A stretch of DNA of 64,000 bases from an uncultured Oscillospiraceae bacterium (GCA_947581795.1 CANPVS010000005.1:24674-88673); one strand, 5' to 3'. Shown: positions 11,712 to 24,412, counted from the stretch's first letter. Notes: a model not told the origin generated them from the sequence alone. A program made the numbers and translations.

Positions 11712-14261
11712 ATGAAGAAACTGGCCATCGGCATACTGGCCCACGTAGACGCGGGCAAGACCACCCTCTCCGAAGGGATGCTCTATTTGGCGGGCAAAAT
11801 CAAGAAGCTGGGCCGGGTGGACCACCGGGACACTTACCTGGATACCCACGACCTGGAGCGCGCCCGGGGCATCACCATCTTCTCCAAACAGGCGGTATTC
11901 ACCGCCGGGGAAACCGAGATCACCCTCCTGGATACCCCCGGTCACGTGGATTTCTCCCCGGAGGCAGAGAGGGTGCTCCAGGTGCTGGATTACGCCATCA
12001 TGGTGGTGAGCGGCACCGGCGGCGTCCAGGCCCACACCGAGACCCTGTGGACCCTTTTGCAGCGCTATAGGGTCCCCACCTTCGTCTTCGTCACCAAGAT
12101 GGACGTGAACGGCACGGACAAGGCCAGGCTCATGGCCGACATCCACGCCCGCCTGGGCGAGAATTGCGTGGATTTCGCCCCGGACAACGCCGGACGTGAC
12201 GAGGCGATCGCCATGCTGGACGAGGCGGCTCTGGATAAGTACATGGACTTCGGCGCTCTCTCCGACGAGGAGATCATCCGCCTTGTCCGGGAGCGGAAGC
12301 TGCACCCCTGCTTTTTCGGCTCCGGGCTGAAGCTGGACGGCGTGGAGGAATTTCTCGCCGCCCTGGAGCGTTATACCGCCGTCCCCGCCTGGCCCGCGCC
12401 CTTCGGGGCCCGGGTTTACAAGATCGGCCGGGACGCCCAGGGAAATCGCCTTACCTACCTGAAGGTCACCGGCGGTACCCTCGCCGTCCGGGCCCCCATC
12501 CGGTATCTGCCCCTGCGGGGCTCGGAGCCGGTGGAGGAAAAAATAAGCCAGATATGCCTCTACTCCGGGGTGAAGTACGACACCGCCGACATGGTGCCCG
12601 CGGGGCAGGTCTGCGCCGTCACAGGACTCACCAAAACCTGGCCGGGCCAGGGTCTTGGCGCGGAGCCGGACGGTGACGAGCCCTACCTCACCCCCGCCAT
12701 GGGCTACCGTATCCGCCTGCCCAAAGGCTGCGACGCCCGGACCATGCTGCCGAAGCTGAAACTGTTGGAGGAGGAAGAGCCTCAGCTGCACATCCTCTGG
12801 CAGGAGACGTTGGGGGAGATACACGTCCAGCTCATGGGCGCGGTGCAGATAGAGATACTGAAGAGCCTCATTAAGGACCGCTTCGACGTGGACGTGGAGA
12901 TCGACGCAGGCCGGGTCCTCTACCGGGAGACCATCGCGAGCACCGTGGAGGGCGTGGGCCATTTTGAGCCCCTGCGCCACTATGCGGAGGTGCATCTGCT
13001 GCTGGAGCCGGGCGAGCCGGGCAGCGGCATCGTGCTGGACACAGTTTGCTCCGAGGATGTGCTGGACCGGAACTGGCAGCGGCTCATCCTCACCCATCTG
13101 GAGGAGAAGCAGCACCTGGGCGTGCTCACCGGCTCCCCCCTCACCGACGTGAAGATCACCCTCCTGGCCGGCCGGGCCCACTTAAAGCACACCGAGGGCG
13201 GCGACTTCCGCCAGGCCACCTACCGGGCCGTGCGCCAGGGGCTCATGCAGGCCGAGAGCGTGCTCTTAGAGCCCTATTACGCCTTCCGCCTCACTGTGCC
13301 CGCCGAGCAGATCGGCCGGGCCATCACCGACGTGCGGGCCATGGGCGGGACCCACGACAGCCCTGTGACCGAGGGAGCGGACATGGTCCTCACCGGGGCC
13401 GCGCCCGTGGCCGCCATGGGCGATTACGCCGCCCAAGTGGCCGCCTATACCGGCGGCCGGGGCCGGTTCTCCTGCCACGTGGAGGGCTATCGTCCCTGCC
13501 ACGACGCCGACGCGGTGATAGAGGCCATTGGCTATGACCCTGAGGCGGACCTGGAAAACACCCCCGACAGCGTCTTCTGCGCCCACGGGGCAGGCTTCAC
13601 GGTGAAGTGGGACAAGGTGCCGGAGTATATGCACCTGGACAGCGGCCTCAAAGACCCGGCAGCCCCCGAAGACCTGGAGCCCACCGTCCAGCGGCAGAAT
13701 CTCAACATTGACGACAAGGAGCTGGAGGCCATCATGCTCCGGGAGTTCGGCCCCATCCGCCGGAAGCAATACGCCGCCCCCCAGATCAACAGCGCCGTGG
13801 GCATCCAGATGCAGGTCCGGAAGGACCACGAGCACATCATCGTGGACGGCTACAACGTGATCTTCGCCTGGGATGAGCTGAAGGCGCTGGCGGCGGAGAG
13901 TTTGGACATGGCCCGGTCCCGGCTTCTGGACATGCTGGCCAACTACCAAGGCTACACCAAGAGCGACCTGGTGGTGGTCTTCGACGCCTACAAGGTCCCC
14001 GGCGGCCAAGGCAGCCGGGTCACTCACGGCAACCTCCGGGTGGCCTACACCAGGGAGGGCGAGACGGCGGACATGTATATCGAGCGGCTGGTGGACGAGA
14101 TCGGCAAGAACGAGACCGTCCGGGTGGTCACCTCCGACCGGATGGTCCAGGTGGGCGCCCTCCGCTCCGGGGTGCTGCGCTGCTCCTCGGGAGAGTTCAA
14201 GACCGAAGTGGAATGGGTCCTGGAGCAGATATCCGACGCGGTGAAAAGGTCGCAGTTTTGA
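11712..14261 (+). CDS. TetM/EF-G-like translation GTPase fused to C-terminal YacP/Rae1-like NYN endoribonuclease domain
   Basis: G1 AHVDAGKTT, RARGITIFS, DTPGHVDFS; C-terminal IIVDGYNVIFAW...VVVFDAYK...ETADMYIERL...VVTSDRMVQ. Confidence 0.88.
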   Translation: MKKLAIGILAHVDAGKTTLSEGMLYLAGKIKKLGRVDHRDTYLDTHDLERARGITIFSKQAVFTAGETEITLLDTPGHVDFSPEAERVLQVLDYAIMVVSGTGGVQAHTETLWTLLQRYRVPTFVFVTKMDVNGTDKARLMADIHARLGENCVDFAPDNAGRDEAIAMLDEAALDKYMDFGALSDEEIIRLVRERKLHPCFFGSGLKLDGVEEFLAALERYTAVPAWPAPFGARVYKIGRDAQGNRLTYLKVTGGTLAVRAPIRYLPLRGSEPVEEKISQICLYSGVKYDTADMVPAGQVCAVTGLTKTWPGQGLGAEPDGDEPYLTPAMGYRIRLPKGCDARTMLPKLKLLEEEEPQLHILWQETLGEIHVQLMGAVQIEILKSLIKDRFDVDVEIDAGRVLYRETIASTVEGVGHFEPLRHYAEVHLLLEPGEPGSGIVLDTVCSEDVLDRNWQRLILTHLEEKQHLGVLTGSPLTDVKITLLAGRAHLKHTEGGDFRQATYRAVRQGLMQAESVLLEPYYAFRLTVPAEQIGRAITDVRAMGGTHDSPVTEGADMVLTGAAPVAAMGDYAAQVAAYTGGRGRFSCHVEGYRPCHDADAVIEAIGYDPEADLENTPDSVFCAHGAGFTVKWDKVPEYMHLDSGLKDPAAPEDLEPTVQRQNLNIDDKELEAIMLREFGPIRRKQYAAPQINSAVGIQMQVRKDHEHIIVDGYNVIFAWDELKALAAESLDMARSRLLDMLANYQGYTKSDLVVVFDAYKVPGGQGSRVTHGNLRVAYTREGETADMYIERLVDEIGKNETVRVVTSDRMVQVGALRSGVLRCSSGEFKTEVEWVLEQISDAVKRSQF

Positions 14262-17512: not shown

Positions 17513-18361
17513 CTATTCCTCGACCGGTTCCTCTATCGACCGGGCCTCTTCCAGCTCTTCCTGGTCGGACTCCGCCGGCTCCTGCAGATACAGCTCGCCG
17601 TCGTAGGTCCAGTACTCCCCGTGACCGTCCGGCCAGAGGATATATACATGGTCGTCCGTGAAGTCGTAGCCCGCATAGCCGCCGGCTTCCCACAATTCCT
17701 GTTCCCAGTCCCAGAAGGCGTCCACATAGCCGGGCGCGTCGTTTTCCTCCGCCGTCCACACGGTCACGCCGTTGAAGGTGACCTCGTCCACGCCGCCCAC
17801 CGTCTCGTCGGGAACGAAGAACAGGTCTGGCCGCTCTGTGTGACTGGCCGGAATCCTCCAGCTCAGCACCGGATGGCGCAGCTGAAAGGCAACCGTGGTC
17901 TTGCCGTCCTTCTCCACAGTCTCCATGTGGGTCGCCGTCTTGCCGCCGTAGGTGTCGACGTAGTGGATGAAGATCTGCGGGCCCTGGTCCGTGTCGATGC
18001 GGCTGACCTGCTTCACCTCCCACTGGGAGTCCTTCACCGGCACGATGCAGCAATCGCTCAGGGCCGCGACGCCCCCCACGGCAGCGGAGGCCGCCAGCAC
18101 CGCCGCCAGGACGACGGCTATGATCTTCTTTCGCTTCTGCTTTTTCAGCATGTCCCGAAACCGGCTCAGGGTACTCTGCCCGCCCTTGGCGGGCTTGACC
18201 AGCGCCTCGTTCATGGCCTCATACTCCGCCCGGCAGTTCTCGCACCCCATCAGGTGCTCCCCCACCGCCGACCGTGTCTCGGCGCTGACCACATTATCGT
18301 GGTACAGCGGCAGTATGTCCCGCACCACGGCGCAGGGCAGCGTATTTTTATATTCGTTCAT
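17513..18361 (-). CDS. Anti-sigma factor with zinc-finger (zf-HC2-like)
   Basis: HLMGCENCRAEY N-terminal motif, one TM, overlaps upstream sigma gene. Confidence 0.8.
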   Translation of the reverse strand: MNEYKNTLPCAVVRDILPLYHDNVVSAETRSAVGEHLMGCENCRAEYEAMNEALVKPAKGGQSTLSRFRDMLKKQKRKKIIAVVLAAVLAASAAVGGVAALSDCCIVPVKDSQWEVKQVSRIDTDQGPQIFIHYVDTYGGKTATHMETVEKDGKTTVAFQLRHPVLSWRIPASHTERPDLFFVPDETVGGVDEVTFNGVTVWTAEENDAPGYVDAFWDWEQELWEAGGYAGYDFTDDHVYILWPDGHGEYWTYDGELYLQEPAESDQEELEEARSIEEPVEE

Positions 18362-18867
18362 ATCATACCGTCCTTTCGTAACGCGTCCAATATGGCCATT
18401 CTTGCCCGGTGATAGGTGACCCTTGCCCAGCCCTCGGTCTTGCCGAACAGGTCCCCTACCTCGGCGAAGGCAAGCTCCCCGAAGGCCCGCAGGGAGAATA
18501 CCTCCTTGTAGGGCTCGTCCAGCGTGTGCAGCACCCGGTGGACCGCCATGGACATGTCCCGGTCCTCCGCCGCCTGCTCCACTCCGCCGGTCTGGGGCGA
18601 GAGGTCCCAGGAAAGCTCTGTCTCCCGGCCCAGCTTTTTACATCGGTTGAGCCAGAGGTTCTTCGCGATGGCGCAGAGCCATGTGTAAAGGCTGCTCTGG
18701 CCCTCGAAGGAGCCCCGGGCCTTCATGGCCTTCAAAAACGTCTCCTGGGTGACGTCCTGGGCGTCGGCCTCACTGCGGCACAGCGTCAGCGCGTAGCGGT
18801 ACACCGCCTCATACTCGGCGCACAGCGCCTGCTCCGATATATCCGGCGGCCGCTTTTTCCGGCCCAT
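18358..18867 (-). CDS. ECF-type RNA polymerase sigma factor
   Basis: LCRSEADAQDVTQETFLKAMK...LYTWLCAIAKNLWLNRCKK. Confidence 0.9.
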   Translation of the reverse strand: MGRKKRPPDISEQALCAEYEAVYRYALTLCRSEADAQDVTQETFLKAMKARGSFEGQSSLYTWLCAIAKNLWLNRCKKLGRETELSWDLSPQTGGVEQAAEDRDMSMAVHRVLHTLDEPYKEVFSLRAFGELAFAEVGDLFGKTEGWARVTYHRARMAILDALRKDGMI

Positions 18868-18942: not shown

Positions 18943-18973
18943 ACCGCGCTCTTCCTAGTCGGAAAAGCGCGGT
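18943..18973 (-). terminator. Terminator after LCP gene
   Basis: ACCGCGCTCTTCC-TAGTC-GGAAAAGCGCGGT; T-run on minus strand (plus AAAAAA). Confidence 0.75.
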
Positions 18974-18991: not shown

Positions 18992-20062
18992 TCATTCGTC
19001 CACGGGGATGTAGAACAGGTCCGCGATGGTGTCTCTGAGAGCCTCGTCGTCCAGGTAGAAGTACTCGTAATCCTCCACCACGTTCTCGCCCTTCAGCGTC
19101 ACGATGCCCTCCAGTTCATAGTCGGAGAAGGCCTCACTCAGTTCGCCCAGACCGTTTACATCGTAATCTGTGACCAGATAATCCGCCACGGCGTCATAGA
19201 CATCGAAAATAACCGCTTCGTCCTCGTTCAGTTTCTCCCGCAGCTTACTTGCCAGCGCGGTCATATACTCCCCCTGACGGCGCAGACGGGCGGCGTTCAG
19301 CGGGTCGTCCGGCATATACTTTCTGCCCCGCACAAAATTCATAGCGTGTTCCCCCATGAGGGTCACGGTCTGACCCATCTTCAGCGTGTCGTCCACGCCG
19401 GTGAAATCGTCCTCGATCGTCACCGTCACGCCTCCCACCGCATCATTGAGGGCGGGGATACCCCCCATCGCCAGGGAGATGTAGTTATCGATTTGCACGT
19501 TATACAGCATGCGGGAAACAGCCAGAACCGTATTCTCGCAGCTCTCCTCCAGGCCGTCGCCATAGGAGTGGGCGTAGGCGATCTGCTCCGTGGTCAGGCC
19601 GATATAATCGCCCATCGCGCCCAGCATCGGTACGTCGGCCATGGTGTTCCGGTCGATCTGCAGAAGGCGGCAGGTCTTTTTCTCATTATCAAAAACGGCG
19701 AGCACCAGGAAATCGGCCATGGCATCATTCCGGTATCCAAGAGACTGCTTGACCTCCATGTCGTCCACGCCGATCATAAGCAGAGTAGATATGTTCTCGT
19801 TCAGACGGTAGTTTTTTCCGTTGATATTGACGGTCTCGGCCTCCTGGCCCTCATAATCCACCGCCTCCGGCATTTCCGCCGGTGGGAATGTCGCCCCCGG
19901 CTCGGGGGTAGTCTCCTCCGCGTGGGAGACAGTAGACGTGCCGGCGCCCTCCGGCGCCTTCTCGCTCTTTCGTTCGATGACATTGGCCACCATGATCCCG
20001 CCGATGATCAGCGCGATCACCACAATGGCCCCCAGGATGCCCTTCAACGTGGATTTTTTCAC
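18992..20062 (-). CDS. LytR-CpsA-Psr (LCP) family protein
   Basis: ISTLLMIGVDDMEV...LLQIDRNTMADV...AMGGIPALNDAVGGVTVTIEDDF...GEHAMNFVRGRKY. Confidence 0.9.
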   Translation of the reverse strand: MKKSTLKGILGAIVVIALIIGGIMVANVIERKSEKAPEGAGTSTVSHAEETTPEPGATFPPAEMPEAVDYEGQEAETVNINGKNYRLNENISTLLMIGVDDMEVKQSLGYRNDAMADFLVLAVFDNEKKTCRLLQIDRNTMADVPMLGAMGDYIGLTTEQIAYAHSYGDGLEESCENTVLAVSRMLYNVQIDNYISLAMGGIPALNDAVGGVTVTIEDDFTGVDDTLKMGQTVTLMGEHAMNFVRGRKYMPDDPLNAARLRRQGEYMTALASKLREKLNEDEAVIFDVYDAVADYLVTDYDVNGLGELSEAFSDYELEGIVTLKGENVVEDYEYFYLDDEALRDTIADLFYIPVDE

Positions 20063-20098
20063 ATCTCCACCTCCCGGATCGACACCGGTAATAGAATA

Positions 20099-20124
20099 GG
20101 CGCCCGCCCCGAAGGGCGGGCGCC
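20099..20124 (-). promoter_or_regulatory. Strong intergenic stem-loop with UUCG tetraloop between SPQTG gene and LCP gene
   Basis: Minus strand GGCGCCCGCCC-TTCG-GGGCGGGCGCC, perfect 11-bp stem. Confidence 0.7.
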
Positions 20125-20209
20125 CGCGCTTAAAGGGAAATCAATTGGTTTCCTTTTTCCTGCCCCCGGAGGGGCAGGCGCCCGTTTCCGGGCAGCGTCT
20201 GGTCAGGGA

Positions 20210-20824
20210 TCAGGCGCAGTCGTACCCCGTCTGGGGAGAAGTGGGCTCGCTGGAGCTGCCAGTAGAACCGGTGCTGCCAGTGCTGCCGCTCTCGGGCTTC
20301 GGCGTGGGCTTCACGTCGGGAGCCTGAGTGGCCTCCTTCATCAGAAGAACGACCGTGCAGAAGTGCTTGAAGGTGACAACAACGGTGCCGTCAGCATTCT
20401 GCGTGAACTCAGCTTTGTCCCAAGTACCATCCTCAGCCTGATACATGATCGCCGCGACTTCACCGGAATCCTTCTCACGGACGATGGTGACCTGCACGGA
20501 GCCGTCGGGCTGCGTGCCGTCCTTCATGTCGATATCGAAGACTTCCGCAGCAGTGGCGTTCTCAACAGGCGCACCAGCCTCCTTCGCGGCCTTCAGCGCG
20601 TCTTCGGCAACGCTCTGCAGCGTCTCGCCGGCTTCGAGCTTGGGCTCGGAGACCACGACATCGACCTTCTCACCGGTGACCGGGTCGACAGCGTCGCCCA
20701 CAGTAGGCGTCACTTCCGTAACGCCGCCGCTGGGGAGAGTGGGGCTGTTAGGCGCAGCAAACGTGGGCACAGCCAGAGCCAGCACCAGAACAGCGATGGT
20801 CAGGACAGAAATCAACTTTCTCAT
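20210..20824 (-). CDS. Secreted protein ending in truncated sortase signal (SPQTGYDCA)
   Basis: Signal peptide MRKLISVLTIAVLVLALAVPTFAA; C-terminus ...SSSEPTSPQTGYDCA*; no TM tail in any downstream frame. Confidence 0.7.
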   Translation of the reverse strand: MRKLISVLTIAVLVLALAVPTFAAPNSPTLPSGGVTEVTPTVGDAVDPVTGEKVDVVVSEPKLEAGETLQSVAEDALKAAKEAGAPVENATAAEVFDIDMKDGTQPDGSVQVTIVREKDSGEVAAIMYQAEDGTWDKAEFTQNADGTVVVTFKHFCTVVLLMKEATQAPDVKPTPKPESGSTGSTGSTGSSSEPTSPQTGYDCA

Positions 20825-20843
20825 GGGAGTATTCCTCCTTTCT

Positions 20844-21608
20844 TCAAGATTCGCTTCTATTTTCAAGGTCAGACTCCAATGTAGCCATGACCAGGAAGCG
20901 CATATTTGTGCCGGATATGCAGGTAGACAGGATCAGGACCCGGTCCCCGTACACCGGTTTGTTCTCCTCCTCATACTGGGCGCTCAGATCGCGGATGTGG
21001 AACGCGCCCTCGAAGAAATTGTTGTAGTCCTTCTCCTCTGTAAAATCGTGTTTATAGGGGATGAGCTCGTTGGAATAAGGCACGGCGGCGAAGACTTTGT
21101 AGGTCAGCTCCTCCTCTGGGGTGAAAACGGTGATGTCCTTGTGCTCGTCGAAGAACTCCGGATCGGTATACTTCTCCCGAAGGGTACCGAACATATTGCC
21201 GCTCTTCATGTTGTGACCGTACAGGACCATCACCATGTTCTGCGGCTCCTTCACGTCCTTCGGCTCAACTGTGTTCTCCGGATCCTCAGTCTCCTTCTGG
21301 GAAGTAAAGCTCGCCTTGTTATATGTAGCCTGGGAGAAGATAGCCCCGTCCAGGTTTATGTTCCCGTCGCTGTCATGGTGGAGATAGTAATCATCCATGT
21401 CAGGATTCTGAACGATGGGATAATCGATGACCGTGTCCTCGATCTTCAGCCACGCGTATATATCCGGGTTGGTCTTCTGCAGTTCCTCAAAATCGATGGG
21501 GCTCTCGTAAGGCTCCGTCTCGCCCGCCTCTTCAGCGGCAATTGCCTGTATCCCTGCCGGCAGCAGGAACAGCACGCTCAGAATAAGCGATAATACGCGT
21601 CTTTTCAT
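20844..21608 (-). CDS. srtB: Class B sortase
   Basis: DIYAWLKIEDTVIDYPIVQNPDMDDYYLHHDSDG, LYGHNMKSGNMF (His), LILSTCISGTNMRFLVMATL (Cys, Arg). Confidence 0.9.
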   Translation of the reverse strand: MKRRVLSLILSVLFLLPAGIQAIAAEEAGETEPYESPIDFEELQKTNPDIYAWLKIEDTVIDYPIVQNPDMDDYYLHHDSDGNINLDGAIFSQATYNKASFTSQKETEDPENTVEPKDVKEPQNMVMVLYGHNMKSGNMFGTLREKYTDPEFFDEHKDITVFTPEEELTYKVFAAVPYSNELIPYKHDFTEEKDYNNFFEGAFHIRDLSAQYEEENKPVYGDRVLILSTCISGTNMRFLVMATLESDLENRSES

Positions 21609-21628
21609 GTGGGATAACGCCCTCCTAT

Positions 21629-22324
21629 TCACGCGCCGATAAAGTAATCCACATCGGCAAAAAACCGACTCACGGGCTCCCGCCCCAGCTTTTTCTCTAT
21701 GAACTGCACCGCCTCGTCCAGATTGGGTGCGCGGGAGGTCATATTGTGAGCGTCCGAGCCCAAAAACTGTATCTGCCCCTGCCGGAACATCCGCAGGGCG
21801 CGGCGGGCCGTCCACCGGGAGAGAAAGAACTCCCCGTTGCATTGGATGAATGTATTCAGGTCGAAGAAGGCCTCCATGGTCCGCCGGGGCTGGATGTCCA
21901 TATACCGTTCAATATGGGCCGCCACCACCTGCAGGCCGCTGCGTTGGATGGCCTCCACCTCCCGGAGCACCCTGTCTGTCCAGGGGACGAAGGGCATCTC
22001 CAGCAGGAGCAGATCCGTTCCCTCCAGGCACAGCGCGTCCAGATCGTCGGTCGCGCTCATGCCGCTGAAGTAGAGCACCTCCGCGCCCAGCAGCAGCCGG
22101 GGAAAACCATATCTCTCCCCTATCGCCTCGGTCAGTCTATTATAGGCTGTCTGTCGCCGGGCAAGATATTTGGCGATCCCGTTCTGCTCTGCGTAGAAGT
22201 GAGAAGTCGCCGCCACAGTGTCCACGCCATAGGACGCGCTCCGTTTCAGCATGGCGATGGATGTCCGCACATCCTTGCTGCCGTCATCCATGCCCGGCAG
22301 GACGTGCATGTGGAGATCGGTCAT
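21629..22324 (-). CDS. CpsB/YwqE-like PHP-domain tyrosine-protein phosphatase
   Basis: MTDLHMHVLPGMDDGSKDVRTSIAMLKRSASYGVDTVAATSHF. Confidence 0.9.
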   Translation of the reverse strand: MTDLHMHVLPGMDDGSKDVRTSIAMLKRSASYGVDTVAATSHFYAEQNGIAKYLARRQTAYNRLTEAIGERYGFPRLLLGAEVLYFSGMSATDDLDALCLEGTDLLLLEMPFVPWTDRVLREVEAIQRSGLQVVAAHIERYMDIQPRRTMEAFFDLNTFIQCNGEFFLSRWTARRALRMFRQGQIQFLGSDAHNMTSRAPNLDEAVQFIEKKLGREPVSRFFADVDYFIGA

Positions 22325-23100
22325 TTCTGACCGCCGCCGTAATAGTCAGCGGAATAGTAGCCTTTCTTATAATAGCCCTTCTTGTAATACTTCTTCTCTC
22401 CGGCGTGGGCGCCGTTGAACACGAAGCCAAGAACATGGGCCTCCGCCAGGCTGAGCTGGCGCATGGTATCGGCAAGTCCCCCACGGACCGCGTGACCGGA
22501 CCGAACCACCACGATCATACCGTCCACCAGGTGGGAGGCCACAATAGCGTCCGTCACCGCCGTCACAGGCGGCAGGTCGATGATGATGAGATCATATTTC
22601 TCCTTCGCCTTCTTCAAAAAGGCGTCGGTGCGGGCCGAACCCAAAAGCTCAGAGGGGTTGGGCGGGATATCGCCGGCAACAAGAACATCGAAGGAGACTT
22701 CCCTGTCCTGTTCGCTGACTTTATACTCCTGCACCGACAGCGCCACGCTGTCCGTGCCCACCAGTACGTTGGAAAGACCCGGCTTTGCCGCCAGAGCCAG
22801 ACGGCCCGCCATCGTGGGCAGACGCATATCCCCCTCGATGAGAAGGACGCTCCGTCCTGCTTCAGCAAAGGTATAGGCCAGGTTGATGGCCGTGATGCTC
22901 TTGCCCTCACCCCGGATGGAACTGGTGATGCCGACGACATGGGACTCATTGGCGTCGGGGAATGAGAACATCACGTTGGTACGCAGAAGCTTGTAGGCCT
23001 CCGCCGTTGCAAAGTTCATTTTAGGGCCGATCATGTTTCGCCGCTCGGTCATGGTCCTGCTGGCGGCGGACGCCGCGGTCATCTTATCTTTCTTTGCCAT
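22321..23100 (-). CDS. Bacterial tyrosine kinase (CpsD/CapB/YwqD-like)
   Basis: ITSSIRGEGKSITAINLAYTFAEAGRSVLLIEGDMRLP; Tyr cluster KKYYKKGYYKKGYYSADYYGG at C-terminus. Confidence 0.92.
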   Translation of the reverse strand: MAKKDKMTAASAASRTMTERRNMIGPKMNFATAEAYKLLRTNVMFSFPDANESHVVGITSSIRGEGKSITAINLAYTFAEAGRSVLLIEGDMRLPTMAGRLALAAKPGLSNVLVGTDSVALSVQEYKVSEQDREVSFDVLVAGDIPPNPSELLGSARTDAFLKKAKEKYDLIIIDLPPVTAVTDAIVASHLVDGMIVVVRSGHAVRGGLADTMRQLSLAEAHVLGFVFNGAHAGEKKYYKKGYYKKGYYSADYYGGGQK

Positions 23101-23120
23101 CGTCGGTGTTCCTCCCTTCC

Positions 23121-24053
23121 TCAGCTCTTCGGAGGCCGGCTCTGCTCACGCTGGGGCTGAGCGGTCCGCGGCTGCGCGGCGTTCTGAGGCCGGGCAGCCG
23201 GCTGCTGGTGCCTTGCAGGCTGTTGAGGGCGCTGGGGCAGTTCCTTCGTTCTGTTTTGCTCCCGCTTCCTGTTCTCCGCGGGATGCTCCTTACGCTGGCC
23301 GCCGGAACTTCCGCTGGCACGGTAGTAGTGTCCCTTGTTATCGCTGGAAAGCATGTCCGGCACCACAGCCAACAGGGGGATGCCAGGATAGGTCTGGGTC
23401 AGGTAATCCTCCTCGTGGATCTGGTCGTCGAACAGATACCGGAGGATCACGATGGCCGCCGCCAGAACAAAGCCCACCAGCGCACCGATCACGGTGTTGA
23501 GCGTATAGCTGGGCGACGTCCGCTCCGAGGGGATCACCGCATAATCGACAATGCGCACATCGCTGCCGTCCACAATGGACGCGATCCGATCCGGGAGGAT
23601 CTCAGTGATGGTATTGGCGATCTTTTCCGCCTCCTGGGGATCGGGGCTGGTGACGTCGATATCGAAGATCTCCGTGGAGTTGACCGCCTGGGACTCGATC
23701 ATCTCATAGAGCTCTTCATAGTCATACTCCAAATTATCCTTTTCGATAATCTCCTCCAGGGTGGTCCGGCTCTTGAGGATGACGATATAGGTATCCACCA
23801 AGCTCTGGGCCGCCGTCAGTTCTGCCGAGGAGATGCTGAAGGAGGTACTGCCCACGGAAATGCTGGAGTTATTTACGTACATCATTGCCGTTGCCGTATA
23901 CTGCGGGGTGATGAGATAGTATGTGAAAGCAAATGTGGCTATCGCTACCAGAAGCGTGATAGCGATGATAAACTTTGCCTTTTTCAGCAGGACCTGCGCC
24001 AGCTTTAAAAGATCGATCTCGATCTCGTCATTTTCCGGACGGTTTTCGTACAT
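23121..24053 (-). CDS. Wzz/YveK-like chain-length/kinase adaptor with long Q/P/R-rich C-terminal tail
   Basis: Two TMs flanking extracytoplasmic Wzz-type domain (YTATAMMYV..., PSERTSPSYTLNTVIGALVGFVLAAAIVILRYLFDDQI). Confidence 0.87.
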   Translation of the reverse strand: MYENRPENDEIEIDLLKLAQVLLKKAKFIIAITLLVAIATFAFTYYLITPQYTATAMMYVNNSSISVGSTSFSISSAELTAAQSLVDTYIVILKSRTTLEEIIEKDNLEYDYEELYEMIESQAVNSTEIFDIDVTSPDPQEAEKIANTITEILPDRIASIVDGSDVRIVDYAVIPSERTSPSYTLNTVIGALVGFVLAAAIVILRYLFDDQIHEEDYLTQTYPGIPLLAVVPDMLSSDNKGHYYRASGSSGGQRKEHPAENRKREQNRTKELPQRPQQPARHQQPAARPQNAAQPRTAQPQREQSRPPKS

Positions 24054-24412
24054 GTCCTTCTCCTGTCTTTTCTGCATTCAAATCGTATGATATAAATCGT
24101 GTATCGGTCCCTTGCCGGCATACCACGAGATATGTACTGTGCGCGCGGTCAGCATACTATATGTTCAGTCATCTGTACACGCTGACGCTCATGGGTATAC
24201 TTCACCCTTGCCCATACGGCATGCATTATATCACACTATACATGGTATTAGCAAGTGCGACATAACTCCAAAATCATGTTTTTTGAGGTTTTGTGGCTTT
24301 TTTTCCTGCAAAATCATAACATTTTAACCATTTTGTAACATGATTTTATTTATTGGTCTATCGCACAAGTATTTTGATGCAAATAATACTGATAAAATTT
24401 AAAAGAGCCAAC

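Follow-up and report, generated by a model that had tools for sequence, protein, structure and literature searches.

The window analysed here, a 64-kb stretch of the genome of a gut bacterium of the Oscillospiraceae (2.29 Mb, 62 contigs, 84% complete), carries six genes on the minus strand between positions 18992 and 24053. In transcription order, they encode a Wzz-like adaptor, a BY-kinase, a CpsB phosphatase, a class B sortase, a secreted SPQTG protein and an LCP protein (Table 1). These genes and their order had been given in an earlier note on this DNA and were borne out by the matches to Pfam and TIGR profiles and by comparisons with PDB chains.

Table 1. Features of the six-gene cassette, with their positions in the window.
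Feature	Position	Strand	Supporting data
Putative operon promoter	24225..24254	-	TTGCTA - 18 nt - TATAAT, extended -10 TG; consensus 10/12
Wzz/CpsC-type adaptor	23121..24053	-	PF02706 (58.6 bits), PF13807
BY-kinase, CpsD type	22321..23100	-	TIGR01007 (161 bits, cut-off 108)
CpsB/YwqE-type PHP tyrosine phosphatase	21629..22324	-	PF19567 (130 bits); PDB YwqE/CpsB
Class B sortase	20844..21608	-	PF04203; best PDB chains all SrtB (E 8e-33)
Secreted SPQTG protein, Ser/Thr/Gly linker	20210..20824	-	C-terminus SPQTGYDCA
Conserved structured RNA, SPQTG-LCP gap	20089..20212	-	Closed multi-branch structure and GC-rich hairpin (20125-20098)
LCP-family glycopolymer transferase, N-terminal TM	18992..20062	-	PF03816 (71.5 bits, cut-off 24.6)
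Strong intrinsic terminator-like site 3' of LCP	18943..18973	-	13-pair stem followed by a T run

The first three proteins show the features of a CpsBCD-type trio, namely a Wzz adaptor, a separate BY-kinase with Walker motifs and a tyrosine cluster, and a PHP phosphatase. The adaptor starts at the ATG at 24053, which is preceded by a ribosome-binding site (GGAGAAGG). The kinase, which matched the CapB/Wzc kinase in the PDB comparison, presents the Walker A (GEGKS), A' (IEGDMR) and B (IIIDLPP) motifs and eight tyrosines among its last 32 residues, and it should be located in the cytoplasm since it has no signal peptide. The metal-binding motifs HMHVLPGMDDG and GSDAHN are present in the phosphatase. 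In the alignment, the sortase keeps the catalytic residues His132, Cys230 (TC) and Arg237; its score against TIGR03064 is 121.5 bits, under the cut-off of 153.75. The homologues of the LCP protein in the PDB are LCP/TagT/TagV proteins, and its LytR_cpsA_psr domain was confirmed behind the N-terminal transmembrane segment.

The successive junctions measure 20 bp, a 4 bp overlap, 20 bp, 19 bp and 147 bp. The short gaps described in the earlier note are thus found among the first five genes (≤20 bp) and not before the LCP gene. This last gap folds strongly and includes a terminator-like hairpin, so that LCP may to some extent be uncoupled from the other five genes. All six genes are under purifying selection, with dN/dS values of 0.08-0.34. 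The synonymous divergence between the window and its relative L157 was very uneven (Wzz 0.76, LCP 0.43, sortase 0.18, SPQTG 0.05), which suggests either that recombination has occurred or that codon use in the SPQTG gene is strongly constrained.

Conservation, glycan neighbours and origin of the cassette

In 15 genomes, counting that of the window, the six genes share their order and strand. The loci counted were the window, L157, L158, L159, L160, L162, L163, L164, L168, L064, L041, L042, L062, L059, L061 and L072; the same-assembly pairs L037/L157, L038/L158, L040/L162 and L042/L065 were counted once and several loci interrupted by contig ends were left out. All the comparisons are with MAGs or other genome assemblies, with the relatives' genes taken from a simple composition-based caller and homology. 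Their sources include rabbit gut and rumen MAGs, and the closest relative found is a rabbit-gut MAG (G230, locus L037 = L157). The six-gene set is widespread in Oscillospiraceae, and the neighbourhood check proposed in the earlier note excludes an insertion of the sortase and SPQTG genes in one strain only.

Some loci depart from this arrangement. L060 is devoid of CpsB, and in L043 and L044 the LCP gene is on the opposite strand, which indicates that LCP is separable. The Ruminococcus cassettes have neither the sortase gene nor the PxTG motif but retain a membrane-tailed homologue. Despite wide divergence, the place between CpsB (or SrtB) and LCP is always taken by a small protein, and this is so in the sortase-less cassettes as well.

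The earlier note had also pointed out the absence of glycan genes, and none were found across the whole 64-kb window with a homology panel that could miss remote families. Neighbouring glycan genes were likewise absent from the DNA fetched around L157, L162, L062, L059, L061, L072 and Ruminococcus L045-L055, according to the panel and to seven gene lists that were read. A single relocation in the window lineage was considered as the source of the glycan-free state and then abandoned, since this state recurs in these loci beyond L157. In other relatives, the cassette is accompanied by sugar genes. In L158, L190, L159 and L160, LCP is followed by genes for a UDP-sugar dehydrogenase, an epimerase, a priming glycosyltransferase and other glycosyltransferases, and in L042/L065 by a different set (priming glycosyltransferase, oxidoreductase and aminotransferase). 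Sugar genes, among them one for a priming glycosyltransferase, lie a few kb downstream in L064. In L164 a priming glycosyltransferase was the only such gene, and L041 has only a gene beside LCP read as UDP-GlcNAc 2-epimerase.

The window genome has glycan clusters elsewhere. The one on contig C6 contains two priming transferases, GalE, Glf, GT2 genes, Wzx and a candidate Wzy without a Pfam match, and others are located on C1 and C4. If the trio acts on the polymers of these clusters, it can do so only in trans. A single BY-kinase was found in this 84%-complete assembly, from which further ones may be absent, and the other match was weak (E 3e-4). A priming glycosyltransferase was found in 11 of 14 genomes picked around cassettes mostly without adjoining glycan genes, and none was detected in the other three.

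Regarding the origin of the window copy, G210 and G232 present a phosphorylase gene and DUF3842, then kinase-like and transporter-like genes, and then a sigma/anti-sigma pair, and in G217, G221 and G218 the phosphorylase gene is directly followed by sigma. The window and G230 have the six genes between DUF3842 and sigma. Compared with the cassette-less site of those five genomes, this is most simply explained by the insertion of the module as a block at the DUF3842-sigma site in the window/G230 lineage. The ECF sigma factor and zinc-finger anti-sigma pair (17513-18867, minus strand), located directly after the LCP terminator, is an older neighbour of the insertion site and lies outside the cassette. 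Also in the window, positions 11712-14261 (plus strand) encode a Tet(M)-like translational GTPase that seems to be a fusion protein, its C-terminal part resembling a YacP/NYN nuclease domain.

G230 holds a second cassette (L160), which leads a glycan cluster, and further Wzz-kinase copies (L056/L191), next to which a tyrosine recombinase and helicases are encoded. Such a recombinase was observed together with helicase-associated-domain proteins both by the Wzz-kinase genes of L191 (G230:C96) and where the capsule cluster of the window genome begins (L093, C6:50.7-53.9 kb), and a link of these neighbours with rearrangement or phase variation of capsule loci is possible.

Sortase, SPQTG protein and structured RNA in the window clade

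Sortases are as a rule membrane-bound, and their substrates normally need a retention tail. The sortase of the window has neither a transmembrane anchor nor a Pro-rich linker and begins with a short, cleavable-looking signal peptide. In most relatives, the N-terminal part of the sortase comprises 56-114 residues with a transmembrane segment and a Pro-rich linker, whereas in the window, L157, L158 and L161 it is reduced to 33-40 residues that include a short hydrophobic core and an AxA site, the motif from which alone the cleavage is predicted. These four anchor-less sortases form one clade (support 100/99 in a tree of 189 columns). The L061 sortase shows a lipobox-like start.

The SPQTG protein carries a PxTG-type motif (SPQTG) after its linker, but its sorting signal is incomplete, as the protein ends in SPQTGYDCA followed by the stop codon, without hydrophobic domain or charged tail. 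It stops 2-4 residues past SPQTG in the window, L157, L158, L161 and L190, the last of which contributes this end only and not a sortase to the comparison. No hydrophobic stretch was found downstream of the stop codon in any of the frames, all of which were inspected. The restoration of the tail by UGA read-through, a frameshift or a SECIS element was rejected, given the lack of a hydrophobic downstream frame and the differences between species in the frames after the stop. SPQTGY is unchanged in the clade although the surrounding linker can hardly be aligned. Hence, the clade formed by the window and three other genomes seems to have lost the membrane tail of the substrate and the transmembrane-plus-linker N-terminus of the sortase, both apparently together.

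A sortase from C. difficile takes (S/P)PXTG substrates (van Leeuwen 2014, cited in PMC13121745). The window sortase would be of the same SPxTG-recognising kind, but it differs in lacking a transmembrane anchor, just as its putative substrate lacks a membrane tail. A search of the available literature on anchor-less sortases or tail-less substrates found nothing relevant, which is not proof of absence. What is new here is a clade with a tail-less SPQTG protein, a sortase with a cleavable-looking signal peptide and a conserved structured RNA.

A genome scan for [ST][PA]QTG near the C-terminus gave no further SPQTG-type SrtB substrates with a sorting signal. On the other hand, a pilin-like operon of the same genome (L097, C15:53-60 kb) encodes a large secreted protein, an LPQTG protein with a full sorting signal and two other sortases, so classical sorting is present in this genome. 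In L162:10561-11292 (= L040), the sorting signal of the SPQTG orthologue looks frameshifted, which could reflect either a faulty assembly or an independent loss.

The AlphaFold model of the SPQTG protein had a mean pLDDT of 51. In some orthologue precursors, the mature part has just 19 or 46 residues, which points to a linker or acceptor rather than an enzyme; the orthology of these very short proteins is based on position and motif.

The gap between the SPQTG and LCP genes contains an RNA element of about 125 nt (folding z -5.0), with two-sided changes at five pairs among the only four sequences in which covariation was assessed. Its covariance model gave five matches with E < 1e-42 in 35 genomes of the genus, all of them at anchor-less cassette loci. 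The remaining matches were weak (E about 1e-7 to 1e-3, the best of them 8e-7) and were judged to be GC-rich noise. Rfam scans assigned no family to the element, and their low-score matches were judged to be due to chance. The hairpin is terminator-like, with a good T run only in L161/L190. As a guess, this RNA could play a role in the ratio of carrier to LCP.

The loss of anchors from both sortase and substrate, together with the insertion at a site where relatives have no cassette, could also mean that the window copy is a decaying remnant, the head of a capsule locus severed from its glycan genes and on its way to being lost. This is quite improbable. The six frames are intact and the catalytic residues are retained, and the low dN/dS values and the constancy of SPQTGY within an otherwise divergent linker indicate that the genes of the anchor-less clade are not decaying. 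Furthermore, G210 and G222 are equally tail-less with their glycan genes still attached.

Possible role in capsule assembly

The established role of the Wzz/kinase/phosphatase trio is the control of polymer length, and the streptococcal CpsBCD genes head one capsule operon with glycan genes. The window shares with the streptococcal CpsB-CpsC-CpsD system the Wzz-like adaptor, the separate BY-kinase, the PHP phosphatase and LCP; its genes, in contrast, stand alone and add SrtB and an SPQTG protein.

The combination of srtB, LCP and BY-kinase/phosphatase genes is also that of the Mediterraneibacter gnavus cluster, so a sortase B in a capsule module is already known. According to that study (Nat Commun 2026; PMC13121745), srtB4 adjoins LCP (RGna_12035/12040) near a BY-kinase/phosphatase pair (phosphatase RGna_12055), this block is conserved while the sugar genes vary, and capsule presentation is lost in the srtB4, the LCP and the phosphatase mutant alike. 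The same study leaves open why a polysaccharide coat needs a sortase. The likeness is one of gene content. The M. gnavus block belongs to a member of the Lachnospiraceae and, unlike that of the window, is joined to sugar and glycosyltransferase genes; a tail-less substrate or an anchor-less sortase is not mentioned in the text accessible (PMC13121745). The compact envelope module proposed in the earlier note stands insofar as the cassette is a conserved, often glycan-free unit and a similar gene set serves one envelope process, capsule presentation, in M. gnavus. Its being distinct from the polysaccharide machinery is unsupported, as in several relatives the cassette is directly followed by capsule genes, and glycan clusters exist at other sites of the window genome.

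With the M. gnavus mutant phenotypes, a joint capsule role is the best reading. The six genes are probably a stand-alone module for regulation, assembly and attachment of a Wzx/Wzy-type capsule pathway, serving distant glycan clusters in trans. From the families to which they belong, Wzz, the BY-kinase and CpsB would set polymer length and export, and LCP would transfer the lipid-linked polymer. The SPQTG protein, small and secreted, would be joined to the wall by SrtB and be needed there to hold or accept the polymer. This proposal is supported by the gene order kept in 15 genomes, the distant glycan clusters and single BY-kinase of the window genome, the capsule genes directly following the same cassette in several relatives, the second, glycan-linked cassette of G230, the priming transferase in 11/14 genomes and the dN/dS values. 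It is weakened by the incompleteness of the assembly with regard to other BY-kinases, the missing retention tail of the SPQTG protein, the separability of LCP and the three genomes without a priming glycosyltransferase.

The attachment step may find an analogue in Actinomyces oris, where LcpA loads glycan onto the sortase-anchored GspA and lcpA lies immediately 3' of gspA (PMC6381275), as LCP directly follows the SPQTG gene here. The A. oris system differs in its housekeeping SrtA, the full sorting signal of GspA, its phylum and in that a BY-kinase trio is not described (PMC6381275). By analogy, LCP could load the polymer onto the SPQTG protein and SrtB could fix this protein to the wall, a scheme that we consider plausible at somewhat less than an even chance. 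A sortase-anchored acceptor or holder is favoured by the A. oris gene order, the short mature orthologues and the joint loss of sortase and motif in Ruminococcus.

Alternatively, LCP could attach the polymer straight to peptidoglycan. SrtB and the SPQTG protein would then form a surface-protein system of their own, linked to the capsule genes but distinct from them, and its loss would disturb the capsule only indirectly. Direct attachment is the usual role of LCP proteins. It is cited for S. aureus in PMC13121745. The opposite orientation of LCP in L043 and L044 and the hairpin that sets it apart in the window agree with two systems. Nevertheless, the small protein is kept next to LCP even where the sortase is missing, and loss of srtB4 abolishes capsule presentation in M. 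gnavus (PMC13121745). This alternative seems rather unlikely.

The earlier note had suggested that tyrosine phosphorylation could control protein sorting or LCP-mediated attachment, with the kinase/phosphatase pair acting on SrtB or LCP. The close spacing of the genes and their conserved adjacency are in line with it. However, the kinase should be cytoplasmic, the sortase has a signal peptide and acts outside, and the C-terminal tyrosine cluster of the kinase fits the usual autophosphorylation model. Such control is highly improbable.

Returning to the capsule module, a more specific and decidedly speculative version for the window clade is that both the class B sortase and the tail-less SPQTG carrier are released and that the sortase attaches the carrier, loaded with polymer by LCP, to the wall, with the RNA tuning LCP relative to the carrier; we consider it unlikely as a whole. 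If true, the capsule would be anchored by a protein and put together outside the membrane, with no classical sorting signal involved. A sortase-anchored protein acceptor that holds the capsule would also be a testable answer to the sortase question raised in M. gnavus. Moreover, with its motif and active site retained, the window clade challenges the rule of membrane-bound sortases and hydrophobic-tailed substrates.
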